Shown one piece after another: positions 3,001 to 58,514 of a DNA stretch of 64,000 nucleotides. The notes beneath the pieces are model-generated. The model made no database searches, was not told the origin of the DNA, and saw nothing but the letters and a program-made list of their open reading frames with translations. The position numbers were made by a program, and so were the translations under genes. Each line of letters begins with the position of its first letter. The stretch's first letter is position 1. The stretch comes from Bryoerythrophyllum caledonicum (Eukaryota > Streptophyta > Bryopsida > Pottiales > Pottiaceae). The DNA lies in NCBI GenBank assembly GCA_963971425.1, contig OZ020518.1, positions 1,748,263 through 1,812,262 of the forward strand. Direction: 5' to 3'.

Positions 3001-5068
3001 ATTTTACTCTCCATTCGAACGCGATAAGATTTTTGGTTCTCTTGGTAAAGCTTTTGATTACAAGAGGAGTGGAATAGGCCTTGCACACCCTCACAACAAA
3101 GAAGAAACACAACAAGCAATACATTGGGCACGCCTGGCGGCAAATAATGACCCCAACCACAACATCACCATTATTATCACTCCCGATATTCATTGGTACC
3201 ATAACCCTAACCCACACTTAGGCCCATTCCCGGACTCCCACATCATAGTATTATTCGAAGCGGACTCTATGACATACAAAGAACCCACTATTCCACCGCA
3301 AATTCAAACACCCCGCCTGGAACCGGCAACTCTACGTATCTTATGTATACACCAACAAACCTGTGAAATAGGTACTCTAGACAACCTCACTCATCTCACC
3401 TTGATAGCAAAAAATCTAAACATTAACAAGGTATACACCGCAATTGCTTCTCCCACACCCATTTCAACCGGGGTTAATCGCAACAAAAAATGGTCTAAAA
3501 CCCCTCACACAAACATCTCCACATCACAAATTACCGAATTAAGCCTCCCCCTCTCCTACTACCAAACTAATACAGACCCTAAATTTGACCCCAACTTTAG
3601 CTACTACACTGACGGCTCTTTCAAATAACCATCCGAAGTAAGCCCAGGACATTGGCACCGAGAAAAAGCCGGTTATGGGATATACAATTCAACCAAACAA
3701 ATTAAATTAGGTAAAAGACTACATGGACTCCAAAATATTCTAAGAGCCGAAATGATGGCTATACACAAAACCCTTAAAATAATCACCACCCAATACCCAA
3801 ACGAACCGGCTCACATTTTTACAGATTGCATAAATGTATTATATCTCCTTAATACACATATTAAGCACCCTACTTTACACAATAGTCACCCGGATAAAAC
3901 TATCCTTACATCTATGGTTGAAATGCTCCAAAACCGTACACAGATCACTACACTCCATAAAGTCCGTGTGCATGCTAATATTGACGGTAATGAACAAGCC
4001 GACAAACTAGCAAAGGAAGGAAGAGAAAAAACCCACAAGAATGCCGAACACCCATACGAACACGCCCATGCCACCCCATACTACTTCCATAGATATGAAT
4101 GGCCCTCCATGGGTGAAACTCCCGATAAAGGCCCCATACGATTCTTGGACAATTACCTCAAAAAACATGATCTTGTAAATAACCTAGAAAAACTTACAGA
4201 AAACTTCCCTGATATTGATAAATGGACCGGCAACCCAAACATTCATAACGTACTATCCAACAATTTCTGGAAAAACCCCATAATAACGGATTCACAAATC
4301 ACATGCCTAATCAAATTTCGCACCGGACAATACATGGGCAATGCCCGCAAACAACTCTTCTATGGAATAGAAAGATTCCCTACAATTACATGTTCAATTT
4401 GTAACACCACGGACCCAGACACATGGCTACATGTCTTACTCAGGTGCCAAAACCCCCATATACACTCACTAATTGTTAAAAGACATAACAAAGCCGTATG
4501 GGCTATTCGTAAACTACTTATATCATCAACCAAATCCCGATGTTTCATTCTCATGAATGCTCGAACCTTTAATGACATTCCACAAGAAAATACGGTTGCT
4601 CCGTGGCTATTACCATGCATCTGTCATACCCAAAGATGCCACTGTAATGCAAGACTCAAACCGGACCTACTATGTGTTAGAGGACTTTCATACAAAGACC
4701 CGCCACCAAATCACATAGACCCTACTCTCACCATCCAATTTATTGAATTCACATATTGAAATGATAGATTCTCTCCGGACACCATTTCAAATAAAACAAA
4801 TAAATACCAACCACTACTTGACGATATTCAAGCATTAGGATGGAAAGTAGACCCCCTCATTGTCATCACCGCGGGTGCTAGAGCCACCACCTACATCCCA
4901 TCAATGACAACTCTTGAAGAAACCTTTAAAACCCCCATCACTTCAATCAAAACCACCTTCTCAAATATTAACACTATTGCTATTCAACATGCTATGTCGA
5001 TACTCCTACATAAACGTAAACTTGAAAACAATCAACCCCTTCCGGACGCTTTAAACCCCCCTCCATAG
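2..5068 (+). pseudogene. LINE-A ORF2: reverse transcriptase + RNase H + zinc-knuckle-like tail, three in-frame stops
   Basis: One reading frame runs from base 2 to a TAG at 5066-5068, interrupted only by TAA 722-724, TAA 3626-3628 and TGA 4757-4759. RT signatures include NKAPGPDHIP (near 395), the FRAERSTT block, YIDFKNAFGSIDH, RGTIQGDTLSPYLF and the catalytic YADD at 1091-1102. A long linker is followed by RNase H: YTDGS just before the 3626 stop, RAEMMA, FTDC and NEQADKLAKEG supply the four acidic positions. A CxxC...H...C cluster follows near 4390-4450, as is common in LINE C-termini. LINE-B reads CAA where the first stop lies, and the other two stops also fit single C-to-T changes (CAA to TAA, CGA to TGA). 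Relative to LINE-B the YADD region lacks 15 bp in frame. Probably recently inactive. RNase H and the APE domain of its sister copy argue against a typical angiosperm L1, but I did not assign a clade. Confidence 0.9.
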
Positions 5069-10274: not shown

Positions 10275-10709
10275 CTACCAATGCTTCGGAGGAGGCTTCT
10301 CGTACTTGGGAGGAGGCTTGTGGTACTTGGGAGGAGGCTTCTCGTACTTGGGAGGAGGCTTGTGGTACTTGGGAGGAGGCTTCTCGTACTTGGGAGGAGG
10401 CTTCACGTACTTGGGAGGAGGCTTCTCGTACTTTGGAGGAGGCTTGTGGTACTTGGGAGGAGGCTTCTCGTACTTGGGAGGAGGCTTCACGTACTTGGGA
10501 GGAGGCTTCTCGTACTTTGGAGGAGGCTTGTGGTACTTGGGAGGAGGCTTCTCGTACTTCGGAGGAGGCTTGTGATACTTGGGAGGAGGCTTCTCGTACT
10601 TTGGAGGATGGTGTCCCGTCAAGTCACGCCCCCTAGCATCCGCTGGAGCCCCAACAAAAACCACCACCAGGGCCAGCAGAACAGCCAGGCACATCCTCAA
10701 GGGAGCCAT
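10275..10709 (-). CDS. Secreted proline-rich cell-wall protein, PPPKYEK/PPPKYHK heptads (PRP-L)
   Basis: The ORF encodes 144 residues. I chose the ATG at 10709 because it sits in a good context (GGCC ATGG) and starts a clear signal peptide: MAPLRM followed by a Leu/Val-rich core ending near APADARG. The in-frame upstream extension covers the 5' UTR and TATA box and is unlikely to be translated. The mature part is 15 heptads alternating PPPKYEK, PPPKYHK and occasional PPPKYVK, ending PPPKHW. Such Pro/Lys/Tyr repeats are typical of structural PRP/extensin-like proteins cross-linked into the plant wall through Tyr. There is no Ser-Pro4, so it is PRP-like and not a classical extensin. No intron is needed. 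The right-arm copy has 11 heptads. Confidence 0.85.
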   Translation of the reverse strand: MAPLRMCLAVLLALVVVFVGAPADARGRDLTGHHPPKYEKPPPKYHKPPPKYEKPPPKYHKPPPKYEKPPPKYVKPPPKYEKPPPKYHKPPPKYEKPPPKYVKPPPKYEKPPPKYHKPPPKYEKPPPKYHKPPPKYEKPPPKHW

Positions 10710-10772
10710 GGCCAGAGATGAGTGAATGAGAGAGAGAGAGAGAGGTGGGAAGAGTGGAGAATGGGGTGTGGT

Positions 10773-10780
10773 CTTTATAG
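10773..10780 (-). promoter_or_regulatory. TATA box of PRP-L
   Basis: CTATAAAG on the minus strand, about 65 bp upstream of the ATG and followed by a CT-rich leader (CTCTCTCTCT). The identical sequence is present in front of the right-arm copy. Confidence 0.7.
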
Positions 10781-11749
10781 TGCTCGAGTCTAAGGCTGAA
10801 GTACCAAGCCTTACCATTAAGTATATACTTAGGTGACGTGCTTTGACAGAATTGCATTTTCCTGTAGTGCCCATTTTCATGGGGACATGAAAGTCACGAA
10901 AGTGGACCCTCTTGTGCGCTGTGGGCTGTGGGCTGTGGGCTGTGTGCCATCAAGAATGTAGAATACAAAACATAAACTGTATGTTGTCTCCTCTGAGGCA
11001 TGACAAATGTGGCAAACTGATTCTCAACCCGAGCCTGGATGTGCTCATTTCACATCTTGTGTTTCTCCACCCCAGCCTCCGTGTGGTCATTCCATATCTC
11101 ATGCACCTCCTGTCTATCTCTTGTGCGTATGCTATGCATATCTTATGCATCTCCTGCGCATGTCAGCTTTCTCTAATACATCTCCTTGCATGTCTTATGC
11201 ATGTCTTTTGTAAATTCAGCTGTGGTCCTTCATGTGGCTATTTCACAAGTGGCATCGCCCATGGGTAATTTAGTCAGCGAGCAGATTCAAATTTTGAACT
11301 TTCTCAAGTCAACGTTTAACCTGCCTGATTTGATAGGGTTAGGATGTCAGGAAATGAAACAATGCAATCTTATGCATGTCTTATGCATGTCTTATTGCAA
11401 ATTCAGCTGCTGCACTTTCATGTATGGTAAGGCCCCCCTAATAACAAACCTACACCCATAACCAACGCCTATAAAATTGGGGCATATCCAAGTTACCCTC
11501 TTCCATTCCATTACCACCAACTCAGCTCCAAATGGAGGTTTTCTATTAGTCACGACCCTTACTTTTGGTCGTTGGTTATTGGAGGTACCTATTGCTGGCC
11601 ACCCACTAAACATGGTTGGATAGTTTGAAAATTCATAATTGATTCAATTTTCATCAAAAAAATATGAAATCACTTGGGTTGGAATTGTAATTCTATTGGC
11701 TATCACCAGAAAATAATACTATAATTATCTCCTCTCACCATATATTTAA
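10781..11749. other. PRP-L upstream region
   Basis: It contains a short run of CTGTGGG/GCTGTGG repeats (about 10917-10944) and many ATGCAT-containing steps (TCTTATGCATGTCT at 11185-11205 and 11370-11395). These may be promoter or repeat DNA of the PRP gene. There is no credible coding region. Confidence 0.45.
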
Positions 11750-12419
11750 CCCCTAAAGGACCACGACCACTTTCGCTCTAAAACCAGTCCAAAACTGCCA
11801 CTGCCAAAAAGAGACATGAAAATCACATTTTAATGTGAATTTTGGATTTTCAACCGTAAGATCTTAAAATAGACTTCTACATAAACATGCCTCTAAATTT
11901 CGGTTGCAATCCACCACATGGATTAATAGATTTTAGTGTATGAAGTCAAAACAATGGTTCATTTGCTTTCCTGCATTGAGTAGATCAGTAGACTTTGACT
12001 TCACTTTGTATCAAATTTTTGCATTGTACAAGGTCTTAATCTTTTACCATTGTCTTAAGCATGATGTTATTTCCCAACACACCAATTTTTAGAGGTAAAA
12101 AGGGGTGTAGCATATTCAAAACAAGTGTGCAAGGAGTGGAGGTTCAAAAATTGCCATTTCACGTTTATTTTTTTGTGAACTACGTATGTATTCAAATGAT
12201 AATCCAAACGGTCAATAAGAAGGTTTTCACCACATATTGTTGGAAAAATAACAATATCTTTCAAACCACAAATCCAAAAAATAATATAAAAATATCTCCA
12301 CGAAGCTCTTATCAGAGGCTATCTTGGATAAAATTTTCAATTAAAAAGGATATTTTTTTGAATTGTAGGTATATGCCCAAAATCCAATTTGACCCCGAGG
12401 GGAGTTGGTCCTTTAGGGG
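11750..12419. mobile_element. 670-bp non-autonomous TIR element, left arm copy
   Basis: It is bounded by CCCCTAAAGGACCA (11750-11763) and its reverse complement (12406-12419). The interior is AT-rich and its ORF on the + strand (12061-12423) reads through the end, so it is not a gene. The same 670-bp unit is at 56805-57474 (minus). A partial diverged copy lies inside the large hAT at about 22957-23460. No clear target duplication was resolved; the flanks TTAA/TTAC are compatible with a short TA-type target. Confidence 0.7.
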
Positions 12420-16353: not shown

Positions 16354-16374
16354 ATTGTCATCAGGGTTGTCATA
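16354..16374 (+). repeat. 8-bp target duplication + left 13-bp TIR of large hAT
   Basis: ATTGTCAT (16354-16361) is followed by CAGGGTTGTCATA (16362-16374). The CAGGG start and 8-bp duplication are the hAT superfamily signature. Both match the right end perfectly (28722-28742). Confidence 0.95.
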
Positions 16375-16450
16375 ACGGACGGGTTGAGGTGATCGGACGG
16401 GACAACCGGACGGGCGGTCCGAACCGGACGGACGGACGGTTCGGATGGAT
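16375..16450 (+). promoter_or_regulatory. Subterminal CGGACGG repeats, left end of large hAT
   Basis: The motif CGGACGG or a close variant (GGACGGG, CCGGACGG) occurs about six times directly inside the left TIR. Similar CGGACG steps are inside the right TIR (28674-28716). Subterminal repeats of this kind are typical binding sites for hAT transposases; binding is inferred. Confidence 0.65.
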
Positions 16451-16543
16451 TACCTGAAGTACGCCCAATAATTTTTGTAAGTAAGAAATTTTTACTGTGA
16501 CGGCCACGTCATATTCGGATGTGTTAAGCCACCGTGGCACTAG

Positions 16544-16586
16544 GGCGGGGACGTCTCCACCTCTGATGTAGGCGTCCCCATCCCTG
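16544..16586. promoter_or_regulatory. GC-rich GACGTC cluster 1 (left end of large hAT)
   Basis: It reads GGGCGGGGACGTCTCCAC, then GGCGTCCCC in inverted sense. It is related to clusters 2-5 in the same element. Confidence 0.6.
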
Positions 16587-16803
16587 CATCGTTCACCTAG
16601 GGGACCTTAATGTTTGAGAGCAAAATAAGTTTATTATATTAAATTATTTTACGATTTAACAACAATTCCCTAATTTGATACTTCCAAACGAAGTAATATT
16701 GGCGCTAGTTATCTAAGAAACCTTTTTCTCTCCTAGCTTCGTCTATGAATTATCACAACTCTCTTGATTTTGCATACATATACGCAGTTACTTTTTTTGT
16801 CCT

Positions 16804-19800
16804 TTAATTAATCAAACAACCCAATCTGCGCACTCCTTCGGTGGACGGGCCACCCATAACGGCATCTCGAAGGACGATATCATCATTATCTGGTGCCTCA
16901 TCGCAATCTGGACGATTGTCATGATCTGCTCCTTCATCGCTCTCATCTTCGAATTCTCCATTGCTACCATCCGTAGTCCAAAAGCCCTCTATTTTAGAGT
17001 TGTCATTGCGAAGCTCTACGATTGTTTCACCGTCGCAACGCGAGTGTCTGAGTCTCTTTTGTCGATGTGCGTGAGGATCATCGCCGTCGGAATTTATAGT
17101 TGGGCCGTTGGTAGGACGAACTGCTCGATTCGGAACAACAAACGCCGGAGTTGTTGAAGAGCGTCCTGGAACATACGTGTCCAAAAACGGTTGTACAACC
17201 ACGTTCAGATCTCGTGCCCCTATTCCAAGGAGGGGACGTCTACGAAGCCTTGAGGATGATGCTTCGCCGTTGTTTCTTCCTTCACGGCCTCTAGCCGCTC
17301 CACGACCTCTAGACCCTCCACGAGCATTAGTCCTTCCACTGGGTTGTTGATATTGACCCATTGGATGAATTGGCCCAGCTCTAGCGGCCAAAGGGGGTCT
17401 GCTATTTCTGGTAGTAGTAGTGGAAGTGTTTAGACTTGTCCCCTCAACGCCTGCACTTTGCTGGAAAAGTCCATACATGGCATTCGCCGTTCTAGGAGAA
17501 GAGGAATTCCAGGAAGGCGGCGTTGGTACATTTTGGTCATTGATAATAGTAGGCAACACCACAATCGGAGATGGTTGTGGCTCAAGGTCCTCTGTGAATG
17601 CAAAATCATCAGAGGGGTCTAAATATTCCGGGTCAAAACGCTTTCGCTGATTAACAACCCTTTCATTTCTTGAAGTCGTCCCTACAATTGTTGTATTTAC
17701 AACATTTGCGTTAGAGTCTCCTTGAACGACTCCAATGCTATGAAATGATTTACCCATTCCAATAGGGCTCTCCTCGCCATACCGGTTTTCAACCGATCCT
17801 TGGTTGTTTTGAGTCGCAATATTTACTGCGTTCTCTCTGGCTCCGTTGTTGTCAGCATCTCCATTTTCACCTCCATAGTCTGATGGGGAATTGTCATCAT
17901 CGCGAACATTCCCAACATTGCCTCCCCCCCGGTTTCAGGCTCTTCAAGGTTAGTCACATTTGGGATGTTGCTCTCTGAGGAAGTAGACAAAGGTTGCACT
18001 TCATAAATGCCCTCATTTTGAGGAAATGAGGCGAAGAACTACTACGAGGACTTCAATTCCAAGGTCCCAACGACCTTGAGCCAATTCTTCTTCCACATCG
18101 TCATCATCTCCATAATAGTTTCTTATTTCCTCAAGGTGATCGGCGCCTTCCGCCCAAAGATTAGGATTTCTCCGGTACTCCAGCGGAGAGAGTAGAGCTG
18201 CCATATTGTGCTACTCCTCTTCCTCGGCTATCAACACATTAAATTCACGATTAGGTTCACCGACCGGGACCGGCACCAGGGCATCTGGGTCGGAATCCTC
18301 CAGGTGAATATTTGCATCGTACCATCGAACGGGATCGGCCCCCGGTCTTTGTTGAAGGCATCGGCTATTGGTATAAATATATACCAATGACGCAGCATTT
18401 TCCGCCGCTAATCGATTTCGGCTCTTGTTGTGGACAAACGAGTACATACTCCAGTTTCGTTCGCAAGAGCTAATTGAACACGTAAGGGCTAGAATACGAA
18501 CAGCTATTTCAGACAATGCCTTGTCTGCGATCCTGGCCCACCATTGGTGGAGTTGAAGCTTTGTCTGGCGGATGTTAGATGCCTCGGTAGGGCCATATGG
18601 TCTTGTGCCCTCCTTGTACTGTGTTAACTCATATTGGTCGTCGTCATAAGAGATGTCCAATACCTCCATCATTTTACGAACAACCCGATTCAATGCTCTT
18701 TGTGCAATTCCGTCAGCCCTAAGCGCCACATTATCCTTGAGGTATGGATTCAAAAGAGGCGCGGCGTAGTGAACATCGGTAAAAACCATTTGCCACCGGG
18801 CATCAAAAGATTGCTCAAGAGTGGATGCTATGTCAGCTCCTAGAGTAAAGGGTGACTCTCTCAAAGAGTACACGTGTTCTCGCAAATTATGCATCACGAG
18901 CCACACATGACCCATGGCTGGTTCGCGGCCATCAAACACACGCAATGCCTTCAAAACATCCCCAGTCATATGCACGTAATTCTGACATCGTTGCCAAAAG
19001 GCCACATCTTCGATGGTGAGCAGCACATTACGCAAAGCGGTTGTTGCTTGCTTTCTATTTTGTTTATTCCGTAGGGTTGTAAAGTAGTTTATAACACGGG
19101 GGTGGTCTTTCAACTGCTCCAACACTCCTTTGAGTCTCACCAATCGATCCAACATAAGGAAATTACAAGCAAAGCGGGTTTCAGTGGGCACTACAATATG
19201 CAGGTTTGGACTCAACTCACGAAGTGTCCCCATTATCGCATGGTGGTTTCTAATATATTGGCACAATTTCTTTGCCCTCTCTATTAAATCTTTAAATTCT
19301 TGGACCTTCATCCAATCTTCCAACATGAGATCCAATGCATGTGCCATGCACCCCAGCTTGTGAATGTGCGGGTATGTGAGAATAATATCATCCATTGCTC
19401 TAAGCATGTTGGGAGCATTGTCTGTACAAATCTGTGTCACATTTTTGGAACCCACCTTCTCAATGTAAACTTTCACTTGGTCCGCTATGTACCGCATGGA
19501 CTTCTTCTCACCACTGGTGTCTATGCTCCCCAAGAATACATCACCAGTGGGGCACGACATCATTAAATTCATGAGGGGCCTCCGGTGGACATCATCCCAA
19601 CCATCCGTGCATATCGACACCCAATAATTCTTGATTGCAAAACCAACTTTGGCTTCAATCTCTTTCTCAATTTACAACCTCTTAGGTTCAATCAATCTAG
19701 TCCTCAACTGGTGATATGAAGGAGGAGTGTATTCAAACTTTGCCACGGATGTTGCCCTCACTGCATCGATGAACACCTGATTTCGCGCCACATTAAAAGG

Positions 19801-20338
19801 CACATTCGCCTGATAGAAAAACGTCGCCCACTTCTCATCAAGTTCCTTCCTCTTTGCAATGTTAAAAGCATCAAGCATCCGTTGTTGATGTAGTTGCCCA
19901 GATCTAGTGGAATTTCGAGGCGGTAAGACCACCCGACACATGTGAAGGGTCGTTTCCTTCAGAGAGATTAGGCACTCCTTTCCAAGGCCCACTTGTTACC
20001 CTACCCGCCACATTATTTTGAACGTCGGATTGGCTTGAAGCGTCAATAGTTGGTGCCTTCGATGGACCACTCGGACCTGAATCTCCGCCATACATATCCC
20101 CGCCCGTCATTCGTTGCGGAACAATGTTTCCACAATTGGCAAATCGATGTCGCACATGGGGAGGTAGGCTACGACAAATCGACCTCTCTGACTTGGCACC
20201 ACATCCAAAGTGAGCGAACGCACGCTCACGTTTATAGCTAAAAGTATAGTTGCAGAAAACACAACTCACTTTGCCCCCGTTGTCACCAAAATTGTACCAA
20301 GGTTTCCATTCTTTTGTTTGCTTCCTTTGACTTCCCAT
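16804..20338 (-). pseudogene. hAT transposase (BED zinc finger, DUF659-type core, dimerisation domain, acidic tail), decayed
   Basis: The ATG at 20338 begins MGSQRKQTKEWKPWYNF, then a BED-type finger (CVFCNYTF...AFAHFGC...). The core follows in another frame: ANVPFNVARNQVF, catalytic-type CTDGWDD and CTDNAPNM, HKLGCMAHALDLML, and the C-terminal hAT dimerisation block ALTCSISSCERNWSMYSFVHNKSRNRL region, cited here by its SCERNW motif at about 18.45 kb. Breaks: a frame change (or unrecognised intron) near 19,900-20,000, TAA at 19672-19674, TAG at 18211-18213, TGA at 18013-18015, and a shift at a C7 run (17924-17930). After the TAG the same frame goes on with an acidic region (NYYGDDDDVEEEL) and, from 17757, a Ser/Asn/Asp-rich tail to 16804. 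The tail may be a separate ORF. It is the element's own transposase gene, now inactive. Confidence 0.88.
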
Positions 20339-20637
20339 TGCATTCACGGCTTATGCCAAATAATGTGCAAGTCCCGTCTAAGCCAAAATACGGGGATAGA
20401 TATAGTATAGAATCGGGTGAAAATATGAGTTCTGATAGCGCTAGTGCATTGCTTGAACCAATTTTTACATCACCTCAGCCGCACACCGATGTTGCCTGCC
20501 ACCCAAGTAGACTTGCAAGGAGCTCAAATTGAATTGAGGTCCAAGGGATAGAGGCCAAGGTGACAATCGTGAGGACAAACGGCCCTCCCCGATCCATTTA
20601 TACACGAGCCAAGAACGGGTGGGACCTAACACGCCAA

Positions 20638-20782
20638 GGGCGGGGACGTCTCCGCCCTTGCCTGGATAAGGGCGGAGACATCTCCGCCCCTGTCTGGGTA
20701 AGGGTGGAGACGTCTCCGCCCCTGTCCGGGTGAGGGCGGAGACGTCCCCACCCTTACCCGGGCAGGGGCGGGGACGTCTTCC
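20638..20782. promoter_or_regulatory. GC-rich GACGTC cluster 2, upstream of the hAT transposase
   Basis: Five to six tandem, partly palindromic units of the form GGGCGGAGACGTCTCCGCCC (variants GGACGTCCCC, AGACATCTCC) separated by CTGTCTGGGTAAG-like spacers. The cluster is about 300 bp upstream of the transposase ATG. The core GACGTC is a classical bZIP (C-box/CRE-like) site, but here it may equally be a transposase site. Confidence 0.7.
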
Positions 20783-20814
20783 CAACCTAGAAGAAGGGGG
20801 TCTTTGGGGCATTT

Positions 20815-21060
20815 TAGGTGCTTAGGCACTCCAGGCTCCTCCTTTCCATGAGGAGGGTGGAGGTTATAATATAGGGTGCCTTATTTTTGGTTCCGACAAG
20901 ATTGCGACGCACTTAAAATAAGAAGCAGATTATGTCTACAAAGGAAGGCTAAATGGAAAGCACCACTTTTGTCCTTTGACGGCATGCTCTCCAATAAGGA
21001 ACACCTTTATTAGCTCCCTATTAGTTTTGGGGCGGACATAAGAGACTAGAAATGAATGCA
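20815..21060. repeat. Direct repeat upstream of the transposase gene (copy at 22597-22830)
   Basis: About 240 bp including GGCATGCTCTCCAATAAGGA and CCTTTATTAGCTCCCTATTA recurs at 22597-22830 in the same orientation, each time next to a GACGTC cluster and upstream of a minus-strand gene. It looks like a duplicated promoter/5' flank. Confidence 0.8.
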
Positions 21061-21145
21061 CCACTTGACATAGGAAATTGGAAAAATATTGAAAAGATTA
21101 AGGAGATTAAAATAAGAGACGTTTCAAGTTTTGTAAGAATTTAAT

Positions 21146-21568
21146 AAATCAAGTAGTGAATAGCAAGGGAGCTATGCAAGTCTCCATCCATAAGGGGTAG
21201 TATAAGCTTCTAGTAGAATGTAATGTGCAAGTTCTCTAAATAAAAACTTTAAACACAAGTGCTCCACAAAAGATTAGGAATGTACCACATACCATTAAAG
21301 AAAAAAATAAATCAAGTAGTGAATAGCAAGGGAGCTATGCAAGTCTCCATCCATAAGGTATAGTATAAGCTTCTAGTAGAATTTAATGTGCAAGTTCTCT
21401 AAATAAAAACTTTAAACACAAGTGCCCCACAAAAGATTAGGAATGTACCACATACCATTAAAGAAAAAAATAAATCAAGTAGTGAATAGCATGGGAACTA
21501 TGCAAGTCCCCATCCATAAGGGGTAGTGTAAGCTTCTAGTAGAGTGTAATGTGCAAGTTCTCTAAATA
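21146..21568 (+). repeat. 163-bp tandem repeat, about 2.6 copies
   Basis: The units start at 21146, 21309 and 21472 with AAATCAAGTAGTGAATAGCA. The last is cut short. A 35-bp remnant of the unit is at 23248-23282. No coding potential. Confidence 0.88.
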
Positions 21569-21677
21569 AAATGTACCATTACAAACAAAAATGATATTTA
21601 AAATCATATCATGTATAAAGCAAAAGTATTGTTCGCAAATTTTTTTTGCTATGTCCTAAGCCTTTAAATACTCCTAG

Positions 21678-22325
21678 TCAGTAGTAACGTTGGTAAAGGG
21701 CTCGTTCGGTCCTCCTCTGCCTACCACGTGCTTGTGCCTTTTTGCTTGCGACTTGGACGTGGGTTCCGTCGAAGTCTGCATCTGAACTCAACGTGTCAGT
21801 ATCGTAGTTGGGTGTGTCGTCCATCACAGTCATGAATTTGCCCAATCCACCTTCCGGATACTTGCGCCATCCCATTGGAATTATTCCATATTCTGGGCAA
21901 GGAATTTTTATCTTCCCCGGCATCGACTTCAAAGTCGACCAATCCACTTTCTTGTTCAAATTCACCTCCTCATGAATACCCTGCGCAATTAAGAGATTTT
22001 TGTTTGACGAATGGGACGTTGTACAACACCTGGTAACTTCAATGCACCGATTTTTAAACGCCTCGTCGACGCAGTGTTTCAGGTTTGCCTTGTGGAAGCG
22101 TCGGTTATAGTTGTGTCTCTCCTCTGGGAAAACCTTGTCGATGTGGCACCACTCGATGAAGTTTGCGCAATCATCAAAACTCCATGGCTCCTGTACGTCT
22201 TCCCAACCTCGAAAAGCCAACTTCGCGGGATTACAAAAAACGTGCAACCGCTTCCAATGGGCGTTCCCCGCTTGTGTGCGGGTCTTGTCTCGCTCCTCCT
22301 TGGCCAATTGTCCAGGTGAAGCCAT
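21678..22325 (-). CDS. U1: unknown protein of the large hAT, intact (paralogue of U2)
   Basis: 215 residues from the ATG at 22325 (MASPGQLAKEERDKTRTQ). The longer in-frame extension to 22667 runs through the GC cluster and duplicated promoter and is judged non-coding. There is no family I recognise. Features shared with U2: KRLHVF-NPAKLAF, WEDVQEPWSFDDCANFIEWC, HIDKVFPEERHNYNRRF, EAFKNRCIEV, KVDWSTLKSM, IIPMGWRKYPEGGLGKFM. An Asp/Ser-rich acidic stretch (DDTPNYDTDTLSSDADFDG) and a basic end (KKAQARGRQRRTERA) follow. The conserved Trp/Cys/His-rich block could bind DNA or metal, but that is speculation. It is probably a cargo or accessory gene of the transposon. Confidence 0.65.
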   Translation of the reverse strand: MASPGQLAKEERDKTRTQAGNAHWKRLHVFCNPAKLAFRGWEDVQEPWSFDDCANFIEWCHIDKVFPEERHNYNRRFHKANLKHCVDEAFKNRCIEVTRCCTTSHSSNKNLLIAQGIHEEVNLNKKVDWSTLKSMPGKIKIPCPEYGIIPMGWRKYPEGGLGKFMTVMDDTPNYDTDTLSSDADFDGTHVQVASKKAQARGRQRRTERALYQRYY

Positions 22326-22477
22326 GGTTTGCACGTGTTTTTGCAAAAATTTGGTATATGTGGATGAATGAAGACCCCGCACGACGCCAACATCCAGCTC
22401 AATGAAGAGATGGATGGAGAGGAGTATGCGAGGCGGGGACAAATGAAGAGTTTCTCCATTAAAATAGTAATCCGGTA

Positions 22478-22522
22478 GGGGGCGGGGACGTCTCCGCCCC
22501 ACCAGGGTAGGGGCGAGGACAT
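22478..22522. promoter_or_regulatory. GC-rich GACGTC cluster 3, upstream of U1
   Basis: GGGGGCGGGGACGTCTCCGCCCC-type unit (22478-22500) plus a degenerate GGGGCGAGGACA step, about 155 bp upstream of the U1 ATG. Confidence 0.65.
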
Positions 22523-22596
22523 TTGCTTGAAAATTTTGGGGGGGGGTCGTCCCCACAAAACTCTTGAAGGAGGCGTTTGAGGCCATTGTTGCTTGG

Positions 22597-22830
22597 CCGA
22601 GGCACTCCTCTTCTCCATGAGGCGGGTGCACAATTAAATAAGGGTGCATTATTTTTGGTTCTGACAAGATCCTAATGCACTTAAAATAACACGTAGGTTA
22701 TGTCTTTCCTTAGTTCTAGGGAGGAAGGCGAAATGGAAAGTACAACTTTTGTACTTTGACGGCATGCTCTCCAATAAGGAACACCTTTATTAGCTCCCTA
22801 TTAGTTTTGGAGCAAACATAAGAGTGTAGA
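22597..22830. repeat. Second copy of the duplicated promoter-side repeat
   Basis: Direct copy of 20815-21060 (shares GGCATGCTCTCCAATAAGGA). It lies upstream of U1 on the minus strand. Confidence 0.8.
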
Positions 22831-22956
22831 AAATTATTTACTTTCAAATTTTTAAAAAAATTCTTGTCTTTAGTGGAAAATAACGCTTCAACTCAAGTCA
22901 AAGATTTTCACATATTGCCAAAAATAAAACGGGCAAGGTACCAAAAACAAAAACGT

Positions 22957-23460
22957 CTTACCACATAAAACTTAGAGATTTTAACTTTTTATACTTTTGA
23001 TTTTTTCCACAACAATATGTGGTGTAGACCTTCATACTGACCGTTTGGATCATCAATCTAAAACATATCAAGTATCTAAAAACTAAAACGTTAATTGCCC
23101 ATTTTTGAGCTTCCACTACTAGCATAGTTGACTTGAATAAGCTACACCCTTTTTCTACCTCTAACAATTGGTGTATAAGGAACTAGCATCATCCTAAACT
23201 ACCATTAGTAATGGATTTAGGCCTTATGTAGTGCAAAAATTTGATACCAAGTAGTGAATAGCATGGGAGCTATGCAAGTCTTTCAATCCGTGCGGTTAAA
23301 ATTTATGAAATTTTGTGGGGACATTAACAAAGAAGTATTTATTGAGATCCTACGGTTAGATGTAGAAATAAAAAATGTTTTGTCTCCCTTCTTAGGCATT
23401 ATACTATAGCCGGGCAGTTTTGAAGTGTTTTTGGTGCAAAAATGCCTTGGTCCTTTAGGG
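22957..23460 (-). mobile_element. Partial, diverged copy of the CCCCTAAAGGACCA TIR element
   Basis: In reverse complement this segment follows the order of 11750-12419: a GGTCCTTTAGGG end at about 23449-23460, then the region whose translation reads VEKGCSLFKS...AQKW..., comparable to 12090-12260. The far TIR is not found. It probably inserted into the hAT and then decayed. Confidence 0.6.
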
Positions 23461-23645
23461 ATTAAAAATGTTTGGAGGTTTAAAAATTGGTCCACACCAT
23501 TTTTGTTTATACAAACGCACAAATCCTTATGAGGCTTAAGTACATCCATAATCACACCACTATTATCAAGTGGAATGTAGACACTACTATTCATATTTTT
23601 TTACCATGCATAATGTAGTACAAAAATGGGAAAATACATTAAACG

Positions 23646-24968
23646 CTAAAAGATGAAGCATTGTAAGAAAAATGTCTCTTGGTACCACAAAAACAAAAAA
23701 TACACGTAGTCAGTATTCATCGGGCTATTAGTAGTGCCACTCGCCCCTGCCTCGTTGTCGTGTGCCCCTACATGCATAGGGAGGTCTTCATCTAAGCCCA
23801 ATACAAGTCTACAAGACGCTGATCGTATTCTCCTCGCTGGTCCATCTTCATCCAACACGGCCCTTAGGATTTGGGATTGCATGAGCTGGTCGAGCGCTTG
23901 CCGTGTCCCTGGACTGTGCACATCCAGCAAGAAGTCCATTATGTCATTTCGGAAAATTTCTTTCCACTCTGATTCCGATAATTGTCTTAGTTCTTGCGGG
24001 TCCGGTTGGTCAACGTCGTGAGAAATGCGATCCCCGTTGTCGTCTGTGATGCGAACTCCGTCAACGGTCCACAACCATTGCCGTGGATGTGGTCCGAATC
24101 GAAATTGCTCCCCGTTCTCGTCCCAATGGCCATTAAAGCATGGATAGAAGAAATTTCGTTTTCCTTGACTGTATTTGTCCATTAACGGGATCAAATTCTT
24201 GCACACCCGGACAATTTGCTCCGGGTCCCTTTCCCAATCCCACTCGTTTGAGAGGTGCATCTTATCCAACGAGTGCATCTTTAGTTTCCAGCTCCACACC
24301 AAATCCTTTCCCCACATCTGTGATTGATCAGGGGCGTTCGTCACATTGAACTCCCAATGCGGGGGCATGTATGGAACTAATTCAAAAAGTTCGTACAATT
24401 GCTCGTCAAATGGGGCCTTGCACAATGAGCACCGCCGGTGTACAACCATCAAGCTAATCAAGCAAAATGGATGGTACAAGTGCTCATAAGTGCCTAGATG
24501 CATCCCACCTTCTGGACCAAATGGGTTTAGACAAATTGAGCAAGTCGTACCGTCGGATACGAAGCTCGAAGGTTGTGGCCACAATAACATGGGGTTGCCC
24601 CGATGATCGAGGGTGGATGAAACCTCTTTTTTGAAATCCCAATTGTAATAGAACCAATCGATGGTTGTTTGCCCACCGGCGGTTTTCACCATCGCCATTT
24701 CATCCATCTTGAAAAGATCATCTACGAGGGCCCATGACGTCAAACCAAACACCCTCTCTTGGTTGTTTTCGGTATAATTGTTGTTGATTTTTTGGAATTC
24801 CGCCACCAATTTTTGGAACCGATCGACCGTGAACACGCAAGCCAATTTCCATTGATAGTAATGTTCTACCAACACATCCAAGGGACTTTGTAGTCTTGAA
24901 TTCTCTTCAAGCGCTTTGGCGAGCTCTTTGCCGCCGTCACCCGCCGCACCCTCTTCTTTATTGACCAT
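23646..24968 (-). CDS. RING-like zinc-binding protein carried by the large hAT
   Basis: 440 residues with no internal stop. Residues 1-130 are unassigned (KALEENSRLQ, LVEHYYQWKLACVF, TTIDWFYYNWDF). Residues 143-183 hold C143xxC146, H163xxH166xxC169 and C180xxC183 with HPFCL and SLCK, the layout of a RING-H2 finger. The usual third ligand (Cys before the first His) is absent; H157 might replace it. RING-H2 fingers usually make E3 ubiquitin ligases. The C-terminal half is rich in Trp and Asp/Glu (WEFNVTNAPDQSQMWG, HPRQWLWTVDGVRITDDNGD) and has no family I know. The last ~20 residues are hydrophobic read-through and may not be native. An upstream minus-strand frame (25066-24866, MTTRAREEEGLVHV) may be the true N-terminus after a frameshift. 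Confidence 0.68.
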   Translation of the reverse strand: MVNKEEGAAGDGGKELAKALEENSRLQSPLDVLVEHYYQWKLACVFTVDRFQKLVAEFQKINNNYTENNQERVFGLTSWALVDDLFKMDEMAMVKTAGGQTTIDWFYYNWDFKKEVSSTLDHRGNPMLLWPQPSSFVSDGTTCSICLNPFGPEGGMHLGTYEHLYHPFCLISLMVVHRRCSLCKAPFDEQLYELFELVPYMPPHWEFNVTNAPDQSQMWGKDLVWSWKLKMHSLDKMHLSNEWDWERDPEQIVRVCKNLIPLMDKYSQGKRNFFYPCFNGHWDENGEQFRFGPHPRQWLWTVDGVRITDDNGDRISHDVDQPDPQELRQLSESEWKEIFRNDIMDFLLDVHSPGTRQALDQLMQSQILRAVLDEDGPARRIRSASCRLVLGLDEDLPMHVGAHDNEAGASGTTNSPMNTDYVYFLFLWYQETFFLQCFIF

Positions 24969-25165
24969 AGTTTTGTCTGCGTTGGTAGGGCCTCATCAAA
25001 CGACAATAAATCGTCTTCGGTTGACACGTGTACAAGCCCTTCCTCCTCCCGTGCTCTTGTGGTCATTGTACTAGCTTGTAGGGCAAGTCAGAGCTCCTCC
25101 ATATCACGTTGTTGCTAGTCAATAACAATATTTTTGTCATTGAGTTGAGCTCTCAACTTGCAAAC
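24969..25165 (-). other. Space between U2 and the RING-like gene, with a candidate N-terminal extension
   Basis: An ORF at 25066-24866 (66 codons, acidic start EEEGLVHVSTEDDLLSFDE, basic end) overlaps the RING ORF in another frame. A single frameshift would fuse EALPTQTK to the RING N-terminus. No GACGTC cluster lies here, so the RING gene may lack its own promoter or share U2's. Confidence 0.4.
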
Positions 25166-25978
25166 CTAATCGCGCAATGATAATAGTTTTGTCGTCTTCC
25201 CTTCCAATTGGTTCAACAAGGTTTGGATAGTGCTGGCAAAAATAGCACCAATAGAGGCTTCTAACGTTCCACCAACAACCGCGGGAGATTGCACCTGAGC
25301 TACAACTTCATTAATGGTATCGTTAACAACTACGTTAACCATCTGTTCCGCCCTCCTTCGTTTGGTGCGCGCTTGTGTGCTTTGGCTCCTTGTGATTGGA
25401 ACGTGGGATCTATGAGAATCTGTATCCGTGTTCGAGGGATCGGTCTCGTACGTGTCGACCGGTTCAGTCTTCGCCATTAATTTGCCCAATCCGCCTTCTA
25501 GATACCTCCGTGTCCCCATTGGAATCAATCTGTTTGCCGGAGAAGGAACTCTTATGCTATCTCCCATGGTTTTCAAGGTGGACCAATCCACCCTCTTGCC
25601 CAACTTTACCTCCGTGTGGACACCTCGCGCAAGGAAGAGATTTACTTCATTGCGTTTGATATAAGTGATGTTGTACAAGACCTGGTATACTTCAATGCAC
25701 CGATTTTTGAACGCCTCGTCGGTGTACTTCCATAAATTTGCCTTGCAAAAGCGTCGATGATAATTGTGTCGCTCCTCTGGGAAAGCCTTGTCGATATGGC
25801 ACCACTCGATGAAGTTTGCGCAATCCTCGAAACTCCATGGCTCTGGAACTTCTTCCCAACCTTAAAAAGCCAGTTTAACAAGATTTCGAAGCACATGCAA
25901 CCTCTTCCGCTGTTTGTTTTCCGATCAATGTCGACTCTTGTCTCGTTCTTCTTTATTCATTTTTACCGGCGTGGCCAT
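25166..25978 (-). pseudogene. U2: diverged paralogue of U1 with two in-frame stops
   Basis: One frame of 271 codons from the ATG at 25978 to the stop at 25166. It follows U1 closely: MNKEERDKSR, KRLHVLRNLVKLAF, PEPWSFEDCANFIEWCHID, FPEERHNYHRRF, DEAFKNRCIEV, RVDWSTLKTM, LIPMGTRRYLEGGLGKLM. TGA at 25925-25927 and TAA at 25862-25864 interrupt the N-terminal part. The C-terminal half adds a segment absent from U1: basic TKRRRAEQ followed by a likely helical tail with QTLLNQLEGKTTKLLSL. The 5' flank matches that of U1, so gene and promoter were duplicated together. It is divergent from the kinase-like gene, with cluster 4 in between. Confidence 0.72.
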
Positions 25979-26148
25979 GGATGGGGAAAATCTGAATATA
26001 ATGTATGTGATGCGAATGGATGAAGTCCTCACACGACGCCCACAACCAACTCAATTAAGAGGTGGATGGAGAGGGAGTATGTGAGGCGGGGACAATTAGG
26101 GGCGTGCACGATATTATATAGCCGATAGACGAAGCACCGGTCTAGGGT

Positions 26149-26281
26149 CCCCGGGCAGGGGCGGGGACGTCTCCGCCCCACCCTAAGCACGGCGGAGACG
26201 TCCCCGCCCCCTCCATTTATGGGCGGAGACGTCTTCGCCCCTACCCAGGTGCTCCCCGGGTGGGGCGGGGACGTCTTCGCG
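26149..26281. promoter_or_regulatory. GC-rich GACGTC cluster 4, between U2 and the kinase-like gene
   Basis: About four GGGGCGGGGACGTCTCCGCC / GGCGGAGACGTCCCCGCC units in the 517-bp divergent intergenic region. A TATATA-like run (26110-26119) precedes it on the U2 side. Confidence 0.7.
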
Positions 26282-26494
26282 AAAAGAACCCTAAACCACA
26301 TAAATAGGGGACTTTTGTCCTTATTCTCTGCCAAGTCTACTCCCTAGGCCTTACGTGTCAGTTTGCTTTGCTGCCTGAAAGTGAGTTTGGTGGATGGTTG
26401 GGCTTGGCCCATTTATTGCACCCAGACTCTTTGCGGTTTTTTTTAAAACCATCAACTTGGAATTTCCACCACGGTAGGGAGTTGACTATCACAT

Positions 26495-28081
26495 ATGGCA
26501 GGAGAAGGAAGTAGGTCGATGGAGAAGCACCCCCAATTTATGGATTTGGATGATGTTGGTGAGACGGTGCTTCCGTCCACCAACACGGAGTTGACTTCGG
26601 GATCATTGAATCCGTCGTCATCGAGCGAGAAGAGGCGGAAGAAGTCACCAAATACGGACATGCCCCCGCACGAATACATGGTTGAATGTAGAGGGATTGC
26701 CGTCGAGTTTTACAACCGCCGAACGAGAGGGCCTTGATGAGGAGCTATTTGGCGCACAACGAAGAGGGATACCACACGTTGACCGTTGACATGCGACACG
26801 AATTAATATCAAACGTTGATAAATTTGAGAAATTTAATAATTTCTCAGATTTATTGGTTGCATTCGGAGTGGTTGGACACACAAGTGACCGCACTAACCA
26901 CCAATATTGTTGCGAACTGGTGTTACATCACGGAGAAGAAGGAGGATGAAAGCAATTGGAACATGGAGGAGCACGCACTAGTGGCGAAGATGAGGATGAT
27001 CCAGGGCTTCGTTCAACAATACTCTTCTTCCCGTAAGAAGAAACTGGCTCCTTGGAAAGCGTCTATTGAGGGGTAAATTTTGGCTCACTACGTCCGTGGA
27101 ACTTTCAAATGGCTTGAAAGTTGCGCTAAGGTGATTCCAATGCCAGGACAAAAAGCGGTGGGTGGCTATGGGGCTGTACGGAAGGTGATGATAACCAAAT
27201 TGGAAAACATTCCAAGTTGGATTTACTTTGCCGGAAAGACTCTGACCAACACCAACGAGAGGGAGAAGCGCCGAGACATCATCAACAAGGCTCGAGGGAG
27301 TCCGGTAGTGCATCCAAGGATCATTAGACTTGCATACATCCACCCGACAACTATAGAAGGGTACACGCTCTGGTCGAATGGGGGATCTCTGGGGAGTTTT
27401 TTGTCCAAGTTTGACTCGAAAGTGGACAAAGCATTGCCGTTTGAACAGATTGAGATGCATCCAAATACCGGGTTGTCGATCCAAAAACTTTGATGGGTAA
27501 AAACTTACCGCAAAAATCGAGTGAACCTCGCGCTATCGTTGCTTGTCATTGTGGGGAAATGCCACGACGCGAATTATATACACAATGACATCCCTCCATC
27601 AAATGTTTTGCTTCACTTTGATGAGTGGAAACCCAATACGGTGTACATAGGAATTTGCGATTGGGGGCTTTCTAGTCGGGTTGTGGAGAATGAGCCATCA
27701 AGGTATGGTTATGAATTCAAGGAGCAGGTTCAACTTGAGAGAGAGCGGCGACGGTTTGTGGCACCAGAACTGTTCTATGTTTTTGGGCCGCGGGACTCCA
27801 CCAACTCGCTTGAAGTCATGCAACGGTCACACCTCTACTCCAAGGCAGGAGATGCATTTGCGGTGGCCCGGTGGGTTGGATTTGTGAATTTTTTTTGGAA
27901 AGAAGATTGGGACACTTCGTATTTCACCGCCAAAAACACGGAGCAATATGTACACCTGAAGCTACAATTTGCAGCCTTGCAAAAAGATGTGAAAGACCGG
28001 TCTTCTGTGCCAGATGTTATAGACACATTAATGAAACCCCCCCACGGTTGGACTATGCCTCTATGTTGTTACCGACAATAG
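26495..28081 (+). pseudogene. Protein-kinase-like gene carried by the large hAT, decayed
   Basis: The ATG at 26495 starts a Ser-rich N-terminus ending KRRKKSPNTDMPPHEY. The frame shifts twice (near 26735 and 26870) and is crossed by stops at 27074-27076 and 27491-27493. The kinase domain starts near 27,160: Gly loop GGYGAVRKV, likely strand-3 Lys in FAGKTL, hinge-like YTLWSNGGSLGSF, catalytic loop YIHNDIPPSNVLL (HND for HRD, with Asp and Asn kept), CDWGLS (DWG for DFG), VAPEL (APE) and KAGDAFAVARW (subdomain IX). The key residues for catalysis are therefore present, so the ancestor was probably an active kinase. It is separated from U2 by cluster 4 and transcribed towards the right TIR. It may be a captured host gene or long-standing element cargo. 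Confidence 0.82.
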
Positions 28082-28450
28082 TTTTTTGTTAATTAGTTGC
28101 ATTAGTTTCGCATGTAGTGGTTAAGTAGGCAGTACGGCATCTTCGTAGAAGAATATGTGTACTTGGCAATTGCCATACGTCTCATTTAATCAATTTTGGA
28201 TACGTCCAAATCTTAAATTTTCAGTCCGAGATTTGTATTTCTTCAAACACAAATAATTGGGTATAAATATTTTCTTCACATATAACATGCCAATGCAAGG
28301 CTATCAACCTAGTGCACATGTGAACCGCTCTAATTCAAAGTAAAAAAAATCTTGCAAGACTCTATTGATAGTTAAAGTTGTACACCCTCCAAATTCCACA
28401 ATTTCCACTGCCAACATACTGTAACTTTAAACACTATAATCTAACTCATG
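28082..28450. other. AT-rich 3' flank of the kinase-like gene
   Basis: No coding potential and no repeat recognised. Confidence 0.5.
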
Positions 28451-28580
28451 AAGGGGTAGGGACGTCCCCACCCTTGCACTAGTAGAGGCGGAGACGTCCT
28501 CGCCCCTTCATGGGCAGGGGCGGGGACGTCTCTGCCCCACCTCCCTCTTGGCATTAGTCCCCGCCCCTACTCAAACATGT
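28451..28580. promoter_or_regulatory. GC-rich GACGTC cluster 5 (right end of large hAT)
   Basis: Three units (GGGACGTCCCCACCC, GGCGGAGACGTCCTCGCC, GGGGCGGGGACGTCTCTGCC) plus a CCCCGCCCC step, about 155-285 bp from the right end. Together with cluster 1 it puts the motif at both ends of the element. Confidence 0.65.
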
Positions 28581-28721
28581 CCATGTCCTACGTGGCAGCG
28601 ATGTGGTGCCAACATGGCTGCCACGTCGCCTATTTTTTACCTTGCGGGTAAGTCTACCCTCTGTTGACTGTATCGGACGGGCGAGAGCTCTACCGGACGA
28701 GCGAACCGGACGTCCGTCGAG

Positions 28722-28742
28722 TATGACAACCCTGATTGTCAT
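28722..28742 (+). repeat. Right 13-bp TIR + 8-bp target duplication of large hAT
   Basis: TATGACAACCCTG (28722-28734) is the exact reverse complement of the left TIR and is followed by ATTGTCAT (28735-28742). Confidence 0.95.
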
Positions 28743-44405: not shown

Positions 44406-45064
44406 GTGTTTAGGATATTTGGTTTTTGTTATATTCTATACCAACTATCGTAGGTAAAGGTCACCTTCGGCTTTTATTAATTCAAAAAAAGGCATGATGA
44501 ATTTGTGGAAATTATTAAGTGAATATGTCAAAATTGAAGAAAATATTAATATACACTACCCTCAAACTTGGAGGGCATCAATGGATAATGGAGCTACGAA
44601 AAGCCTTGACCTTGGAAAGTGTGTGCATGAGGAATTCAAATACGAGGCTCATGGTCTTGATTTCATCTCCTTGGCCATCAAAACATGCTAAATATAGCAA
44701 TGTGTGATCTATTGTCCAAAATAATGTGACTTCGTCCGGTCAAGTGTAGCATGGGGAGTTGCCCTTACCTTAGCTACTTCACAAGTGGCATGTCTGAGAT
44801 CGGGTAGTATAGTCACCAACAAATTCAATGATTGAAGACTTTGTCAAGTCAATGCTTAACATGCGTGATATGTTGGGTTGGGATGTAAAAAATTGAAACA
44901 ATGCAAACTCTCTCGCAATTCAATGATTGAAGACTTTGTCATTTCAATGCTTAACATGCATGATATGTTGGGTTGGGATGTCAAAAAATGAAACAATGCA
45001 ATCTTTCTTGCAATAAAATATCATGTCAATGGTCACAGTGCTGAAAAATTTCAACTAACTGATC
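44405..45064 (+). repeat. Long inverted repeat, copy R1, with a ~100-bp internal tandem duplication
   Basis: Counterpart of L2, truncated at the LINE-B junction. The stretch starting TTCAATGATTGAAGACTTTG at about 44826 is repeated at about 44925; L2 has it once. Confidence 0.75.
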
Positions 45065-45072
45065 ATGACAAT
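45065..45072 (-). other. Empty target site of the 12.4-kb hAT
   Basis: ATGACAAT (ATTGTCAT on the opposite strand) is present once, flanked by the same bases that flank the element in the left arm (GATC..., GACCTATTGTT...). This is the pre-insertion state. Confidence 0.92.
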
Positions 45073-45264
45073 GACCTATTGTTGAGCTGGGCTCTACAAA
45101 ATACATGACTTTCTACTGTAACTTCCTCAATCAGGTAGGTTGAAGCGTTGAAATTAATAGCATCCTGGAACCAACTTCGTCATTCCCACACCAAAAGGCA
45201 AAGTTAGTTCCATGCGGCGTTGAAATTAATAGCATCCTGGAACCAACTTCGCCATTCCCACAGC

Positions 45265-56804: not shown

Positions 56805-57474
56805 CCCCTAAAGGACCAACTCCCCTCGGGGTCAAATTGGATTTTGGGCATATACCTACAATTCAAAAAAATATCCTTTTTAATTGAAAATTTTATCCAA
56901 GATAGCCTCTGATAAGAGCTTCGTGGAGATATTTTTATATTATTTTTTGGATTTGTGGTTTGAAAGATATTGTTATTTTTCCAACAATATGTGGTGAAAA
57001 CCTTCTTATTGACCGTTTGGATTATCATTTGAATACATACGTAGTTCACAAAAAAATAAACGTGAAATGGCAATTTTTGAACCTCCACTCCTTGCACACT
57101 TGTTTTGAATATGCTACACCCCTTTTTACCTCTAAAAATTGGTGTGTTGGGAAATAACATCATGCTTAAGACAATGGTAAAAGATTAAGACCTTGTACAA
57201 TGCAAAAATTTGATACAAAGTGAAGTCAAAGTCTACTGATCTACTCAATGCAGGAAAGCAAATGAACCATTGTTTTGACTTCATACACTAAAATCTATTA
57301 ATCCATGTGGTGGATTGCAACCGAAATTTAGAGGCATGTTTATGTAGAAGTCTATTTTAAGATCTTACGGTTGAAAATCCAAAATTCACATTAAAATGTG
57401 ATTTTCATGTCTCTTTTTGGCAGTGGCAGTTTTGGACTGGTTTTAGAGCGAAAGTGGTCGTGGTCCTTTAGGGG
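56805..57474. mobile_element. 670-bp CCCCTAAAGGACCA element (right arm)
   Basis: Counterpart of 11750-12419 with intact ends and equal length. Confidence 0.7.
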
Positions 57475-58443: not shown

Positions 58444-58451
58444 CTATAAAG
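58444..58451 (+). promoter_or_regulatory. TATA box of PRP-R
   Basis: CTATAAAG about 64 bp before the ATG, followed by a CT-rich leader. Identical to PRP-L. Confidence 0.7.
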
Positions 58452-58514
58452 ACCACACCCCATTCTCCACTCTTCCCACCTCTCTCTCTCTCTCTCATTC
58501 ACTCATCTCTGGCC

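Follow-up and report, generated by a model that had tools for sequence, protein, structure and literature searches.

In the usual view, an autonomous hAT element consists of a transposase gene and a pair of ends. What, then, are the additional genes that lie between such ends in a moss genome? The question is raised by an element at positions 16362 to 28734 of a 64,000-nucleotide stretch of Bryoerythrophyllum caledonicum DNA (contig OZ020518.1, positions 1,748,263 to 1,812,262; hereafter the window), and we addressed it by searching the 437-Mb assembly that contains the window. Our conclusion, to which we assign a probability of about 0.88, is that the element belongs to a high-copy hAT family whose unit mostly measures ~12 to 13 kb and carries a stable accessory set of three genes, U1, U-RING, and a protein kinase gene, which are not recent captures. 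We regard these extra genes as an old, stable part of the lineage because they recur, because diverged subfamilies have the same kinds of partner, and because the pooled genes show signs of selection.

The window element is bounded by perfect 13-bp terminal inverted repeats (TIRs) of the sequence CAGGGTTGTCATA (left, 16362-16374, plus strand; right, 28722-28734, minus strand) and flanked by an 8-bp target-site duplication (TSD), ATTGTCAT, at 16354-16361 and 28735-28742. A search of the whole window allowing up to two mismatches returned six TIR matches, against a chance mean of 2.1; the only exact ones were the two element ends, while the four others carried two mismatches. Directly inside the left TIR lie six CGGACGG subterminal repeats (within 16376-16439). 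The window also contains a large inverted duplication, in which 5304-16361 matches 63840-45065 in three blocks at 94.6 to 99.7% identity, and the opposite arm holds an empty site with one copy of the TSD (45006-45124, minus strand). When the flanks of the element were joined with a single TSD and aligned to 45124..45006, 115 of 119 positions were identical, and the alignment was gap-free across the junction. Because the site is uninterrupted in the opposite arm, the element is a genuine insertion, and this bears out the original prediction, made from the window alone, of a single element defined by perfect TIRs, a TSD, and an empty site. Taken most simply, the insertion would postdate the duplication of the arms.

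The family is present in high copy number. The exact 21-bp left end was found in 205 copies genome-wide. Searches with one 26-bp marker per gene, at up to two mismatches, detected 364 occurrences for the transposase, 325 for U-RING, and 334 for the kinase, while a reversed-pattern control detected none. We fetched ten loci that had been selected because a RING match accompanied the left end, so that the transposase, U1, and the kinase formed the unselected part of the comparison. The whole gene set was found in the same order and orientation in all ten. Thus, the earlier proposal of one mobile unit that recurs genome-wide with the same gene set holds. Other copies lacking these genes, the finding named beforehand as fatal to that proposal, did not appear among the copies seen; gene-poor derivatives also exist, as described below.

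A census of contig C1, carried out with exact markers at loci that were not chosen by gene content, gave a similar picture. The kinase marker lay 2.9 to 4.3 kb (about 3.0 kb) beyond the RING marker in 41 of 69 cases (0.14 by chance), and the RING marker lay 3.5 to 11.4 kb (mostly ~4.9 kb) beyond the transposase marker in 39 of 97 (0.41 by chance). Either the RING or the transposase marker was in place for 53 of the 73 kinase markers, and either the transposase or the kinase marker for 56 of the 69 RING markers. Starting from the 42 left ends on C1, we found the transposase marker in place at 17, the RING marker at 14, and the kinase marker at 15. Among eight left ends that were read, six continued into transposase sequence. 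C1 itself (65 Mb, 15% of the genome) holds 97 exact transposase markers, compared to 364 genome-wide at up to two mismatches, which suggests that the family is enriched on this contig; C1 is perhaps a sex chromosome or an otherwise repeat-rich one.

Comparison with the other copies revealed four genes: the transposase, U1, and U-RING on the minus strand and the protein kinase on the plus strand. The window copy itself is decayed and dead. Its transposase gene (16804-20350), recognized by Pfam and recovered as the same pieces in all ten fetched copies, is broken into an N-terminal piece (19904-20350), a middle piece (19672-19995), a core with the DUF659 and Dimer_Tnp_hAT domains (18211-19671; PF04937, E = 2e-33; PF05699, E = 9e-8), and an acidic C-terminal extension in a 376-amino acid frame (16804-17934). 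Both Pfam families were also detected in the homologue P0073. Likely positions of the catalytic DDE residues were picked out by eye. The 376-amino acid frame was assigned to the transposase because two metagenome homologues of ~1,100 amino acids finish in a similar acidic stretch, as judged by eye.

U1 (~218 amino acids; 21678-22325, with the start placed by comparison among copies and the open frame reaching 22697) matched no Pfam family above its cut-off. It is paralogous to the domain at the N terminus of U-RING, referred to here as the U domain, and stands alone as a gene. U-RING (23646-25978, start likewise inferred) encodes a protein of ~760 amino acids, which forms a continuous 777-amino acid frame in another copy, and a 797-amino acid open frame was frequent among the scored copies. 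Its layout comprises the U domain, predicted long helices, a RING-H2 finger, and a conserved C-terminal part. In the window, the gene is split into 25166-25861 and 23646-24992, has lost its own stop, and carries a tyrosine in place of one zinc-ligand cysteine. The transposase, RING-like, and kinase-like genes listed in the original prediction are all present, but its 231-amino acid "U2" and 448-amino acid RING frame are the two halves of a single gene. Single U-RING proteins scored below the Pfam cut-offs, with zf-RING_2 at E = 1e-4 falling under its curated cut-off, and a profile search with U-RING matched RING finger protein 24 at E = 3e-7. Among 12 aligned sequences, the RING-H2 ligands C500, C503, C518, H523, C526, C537, and C540 were invariant, and H520 was conserved in at least 90%. 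Judged from its sequence, U-RING is likely to be a ubiquitin ligase. As regards the fold of the U domain, the structural model of U-RING was poor (pLDDT 51.5) and gave no PDB match at E values up to 0.001.

The kinase gene (26495-28081, start inferred) was delineated from the frames in other copies, Pfam, and the predicted fold. It is divergent from U-RING, the two lying head to head, and forms a single frame of ~530 amino acids in other copies, as compared to several frames in the frameshifted window copy. The kinase of another copy, P0002, matched PF00069 with 37.6 bits against a cut-off of 31.7, and the AlphaFold2 model of the kinase (pLDDT 85.8) matched PDB kinases with a Foldseek probability of 1.00. 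Residues K251, E268, D368, N373, and D392, which we equate with the catalytic residues of protein kinases (Lys, Glu, Asp, Asn, and Asp), were invariant or conserved in at least 90% of 45 sequences, and distant homologues at 22 to 67% identity retain these presumed catalytic residues. Long open frames of the kinase, U-RING, and U1 persist in some copies. For the kinase, 30 of 81 scored copies, with the query's own copy counted, had no internal stop, and 51 carried stops.

The association of the genes extends beyond the close copies. Protein searches returned 11 homologues of U-RING, 57 of the kinase, and 20 of the transposase (the last from scoring the 7994 candidates that shared most words), mostly on short contigs without context. 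The best homologues showed comparable identities, with 66% for U-RING, 68% for the kinase, and 66 to 70% for the transposase, and the distant ones included a Ceratodon purpureus protein (28%) and a Chara braunii transposase homologue (24%). We used distant homologues as queries against the same genome and in this way revealed other subfamilies. Six diverged kinase loci, the best 6 of 81 by score with kinases 34 to 35% identical to P0002, were cut out, and transposase sequence adjoined the kinase in all six. In five of them, the transposase shares the strand of the kinase and begins ~0.4 to 0.6 kb downstream of it; at the remaining locus, L049, a transposase C terminus lies upstream of the kinase, and an identical putative hAT end, TATGACAACCCTG, lies downstream. 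Diverged U-RING and kinase genes, drawn from at least 62 and at least 81 rows, respectively, formed at least 11 head-to-head pairs within 6 kb and no pairs in other orientations among the matches listed (0.11 by chance). Among these pairs, three were spaced by ~2.1 to 2.2 kb and eight by 0.6 to 1.3 kb. All three genes stood together at at least three C1 loci, near 15.44, 41.76, and 45.15 Mb, again among the matches listed. Thus, the order of the genes varies between subfamilies, while the kinds of partner are constant, a pattern that we read as a set inherited together with rearrangement.

Further searches bear on where the extra genes might have come from. A viral origin was rejected, as IMG/VR yielded no relative of the kinase or U-RING at the sensitivity of the search, and a bacterial origin was rejected, as GTDB contigs gave only five short, weak kinase-like matches. 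One homologue that is 66% identical to the transposon kinase, P0018, is labeled as a protein kinase of a "Bacilli bacterium" metagenome-assembled genome; it lies on a 2-kb contig and more likely represents plant transposon DNA in a bacterial bin.

We also evaluated the constraint on the genes across 11 copies. The pooled ratio of nonsynonymous to synonymous substitution rates (dN/dS) was 0.41 for the kinase, 0.43 for U-RING, and 0.54 for U1, while the two out-of-frame controls gave 0.75 and 1.02, 0.67 and 0.89, and 0.68 and 0.78, respectively. Set against the frame controls, this measure gives a clear signal for the kinase and U-RING and a weak one for U1, and it does not inform on the transposase. 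In addition, we compared shared changes, present in two or more copies and for the most part older than the settling of the copies, to private changes found in a single copy. For the three extra genes pooled, the nonsynonymous/synonymous counts (N/S) were 61/52 among shared and 256/126 among private changes (one-sided P = 0.008); for the transposase core, they were 23/21 and 157/53 (P = 0.003), and U1 alone gave P = 0.006. The comparison left out changes found in the window copy alone (N/S 34/24 for the kinase, 42/34 for U-RING, 23/13 for U1, and 27/24 for the transposase core), the C-terminal part of the transposase, stop-making changes, codons with multiple changes, and codon columns with fewer than nine sequences. 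Together, these data show signs of purifying selection on the extra genes when they are pooled.

A shared cis motif runs through the unit. The window element contains 16 GACGTC sites, compared to a shuffle mean of 1.9 and to 7 sites in the 51.6 kb of window flanks. Fourteen of the 16 lie outside the coding spans, mostly within palindromic GGGCGGAGACGTCTCCGCCC-like units that recur with a tandem period of ~32 bp at most places. The motif scan located such arrays upstream of the transposase (20636-20780, ~32-bp period), between U-RING and the kinase (26150-26280), and near the right end (28454-28545), along with a single unit upstream of U1 (22479-22510), where other copies have more sites, and a lone motif near the left end (16550). 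The seven copies with both ends carry 16 to 36 GACGTC sites each, with 0 to 5 in their flanks. In one diverged subfamily, GACGTC repeats lie between the kinase and the transposase, and at locus L050, a related transposase copy is followed by GACGTC repeats and then by a likely right end. Given these positions ahead of the genes and close to the two ends, one factor could act on all of these regions.

Several observations weigh against a stable, complete unit. An exact right TIR was found in the stretch read in only 7 of 11 copies, window included (6 of the 10 fetched loci); the 20 kb read from each of e2, e4, e6, and e9 contained none. Among copies with both ends, which measure 12.1 to 13.2 kb except for e10 at 17.7 kb, the TSD is exact in three (the window, e5, and e10), has one mismatch in e1 and two in e3, and is unmatched in e7 and e8. 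On C1, both partner markers are missing from the expected position at 20 of 73 kinase markers and 13 of 69 RING markers, and all three exact markers are missing at 18 of the 42 left ends; such exact matches probably erode as copies age. Two of the eight left ends read enter rearranged or deleted interiors. At these two loci, L002 and L008, the left end of the family is joined to rearranged interior pieces or pieces are missing, as in internally deleted derivatives, and thus gene-poor derivatives coexist with the full unit. For the diverged transposase, a kinase among the matches listed lies within 12 kb of only 12 of the 53 rows listed, at 9 loci, against 0.4 by chance. The selection measures are uneven as well: the dN/dS of the transposase core (0.56) is no better than one of its controls (0.50 and 0.96), that of the C-terminal part, at 0.65 against controls of 0.81 and 0.64, yields no information either, and the shared/private comparison is not significant for the kinase (P = 0.27) or U-RING (P = 0.10) singly. 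Last, L049 has no GACGTC motif, and thus the motif is not universal in the lineage.

Could these be an ordinary hAT's captured host genes, as in Pack-TYPE elements or the histone H3-carrying hAT of a fungus, amplified as passengers without function? In the parts of the two papers drawn on here, amplification of captured genes by hAT elements is documented (PMC6710886) and Pack-hATs are described (PMC8903248); the decay of the window copy would also fit. However, the kinase stands beside a related transposase both here and in two other arrangements, at ~35% identity, U-RING adjoins the kinase in the diverged groups, and full-length open frames are kept in many of the scored copies. Passengers of this kind are also hard to reconcile with the depletion of amino acid changes among the shared changes of the pooled genes and with the zinc-binding and presumed catalytic residues kept in distant homologues. 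The only plant-named match among the U-RING and kinase homologues is the Ceratodon purpureus protein at 28%, which does not demonstrate a lack of host parents. Capture without function is thus very unlikely in our judgment, and nested capture, which the original prediction had offered as the alternative, is rejected as the main account.

It is still less probable that U-RING and the kinase constitute a separate element nested in the hAT and riding along with it. Such an arrangement could explain why 20 of the 73 kinase markers on C1 stand without a U-RING or transposase marker where one would be expected and why gene order differs among subfamilies, but the L049 kinase sits between the transposase C terminus and the hAT end, and marker loss with age may account for many of the absent partners. 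Least probable of all, we consider, is that the extra genes serve the host and that the element spreads by carrying them, in the style of a Starship. The genes are of signaling type and the copy number is high, which would suit a beneficial cargo; yet the same kinds of gene recur instead of varying, and the 51 scored kinase copies with stops are what is expected of selfish copies. We know of no host phenotype for the extra genes.

The preferred reading, a hAT lineage with its own stable gene set, can be placed among known systems. By its DUF659/hATC transposase, 8-bp TSD, and perfect 13-bp TIRs, the element is a hAT. It resembles Ac/Ds-like, DUF659-type members of the superfamily in having DUF659 and Dimer_Tnp_hAT domains, a short TIR, an 8-bp TSD, subterminal repeats, and internally deleted derivatives, but differs from them in its size of 12 to 13 kb and its three extra conserved genes. 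The portion of PMC6710886 used here puts typical hAT elements at ~5 kb and the top of the range at 7144 bp, apart from that study's own 9.5-kb case. The latter, a hAT of Pseudocercospora fijiensis with histone H3, is likewise large, encodes a DUF659 transposase and an extra gene, and has hundreds of copies; however, it captured a host housekeeping gene, and its copies were inactivated by repeat-induced point mutation (RIP) (PMC6710886, same portion), whereas the extra genes of the moss element reappear among diverged subfamilies and, taken as a pool, are constrained. Pack-TYPE elements of rice and maize, including Pack-hATs, similarly carry non-transposase coding DNA between hAT ends with an 8-bp TSD, but as described in the sections of PMC8903248 consulted, they are non-autonomous and contain gene fragments, while in the moss element, full genes travel with the transposase. 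Indeed, full-length genes lie beside the transposase in all ten fetched copies.

Starships, which are fungal elements with a tyrosine recombinase captain and variable cargo, are also large and carry several genes; by contrast, the moss element uses a hAT transposase and has a recurrent gene set. A scan of nine open reading frames of the element detected the hAT transposase and no recombinase. The notion of a Starship-like cargo transposon in the original prediction is thus not upheld, given the hAT enzyme and a complement that recurs in diverged subfamilies. VANDAL elements belong to another superfamily, and their VANC protein, an anti-silencing factor that removes DNA methylation from the element, is not known to be a kinase or a RING protein. 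These Mutator-like elements nonetheless share with the moss element the status of a plant DNA transposon with a non-transposase protein, and because VANC targets are often tandem repeats, the GACGTC repeats recall them by analogy (PMC5735166, in the part drawn on). Within the titles and abstract openings of the open-licence literature searched, no hAT with kinase or RING genes was described. The word hAT is absent from the main text of a review of giant transposons (PMC6431247), and cargo, kinase, and moss are absent from that of a 2026 review of gene capture in plants (PMC13317346). The nearest precedents, as far as the sections used of each go, are the histone-H3 hAT (PMC6710886) and the Pack-hATs (PMC8903248), both of which concern captured host sequence.

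How might the set work? Read from its anatomy, the transposase would cut and paste between CAGGGTTGTCATA ends, generate 8-bp TSDs, and thereby move the whole set. The kinase and the RING protein might act by modifying the transposase itself or those host proteins through which the element is silenced or licensed, and U1, as a paralogue without a RING finger, might tune U-RING. One DNA-binding factor, either encoded by the element or a host protein similar to basic leucine zipper (bZIP) factors, could coordinate the genes and the ends via the GACGTC repeats. We propose tentatively, and with clearly less than even confidence, that the divergently transcribed kinase and RING ubiquitin ligase form a host-control module, tied by GACGTC to the transposase and the ends, which would counter silencing or license the transposase and which would have been kept until kinases diverged to ~35% identity.

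Other features of the element and its surroundings complete the description. Self-comparison identified a tandem array with a unit of ~163 bp between the transposase and U1 (21143-21571). The region at 22957-23460 had been proposed as a "nested TIR fragment"; it belongs to the family, as exact 26-mers from it were found in 9 to 10 of the 10 other copies. Within it, in the spacer between U1 and U-RING, falls a ~250-bp repeat (23002-23252) that is 77% identical to 12003-12248 and 56976-57221 in the two arms of the inverted duplication. Each arm further contains a frame for a proline-rich PPKY repeat protein (10275-10949, minus strand; 58275-58865, plus strand). At 725-4759 on the plus strand lies a non-LTR retrotransposon-like unit: a reverse transcriptase domain (RVT_1, E = 6e-16) is followed in its own frame by PCIF1_WW (E = 2e-9), and the open frame after that encodes RNase H. 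To our knowledge, a PCIF1-type domain in an element of this kind is unusual.

A conserved kinase and RING protein in a hAT lineage suggest that a module dedicated to interaction with the host can be part of a cut-and-paste element. It becomes directly testable whether a transposon deploys phosphorylation and ubiquitination against silencing, and the moss offers a natural system for this, in which copies number in the hundreds, subfamilies are several, and a cis motif is shared. Moreover, kinases and RING proteins of this type in plant and metagenome annotations, where one close homologue is labeled bacterial, may be transposon genes.

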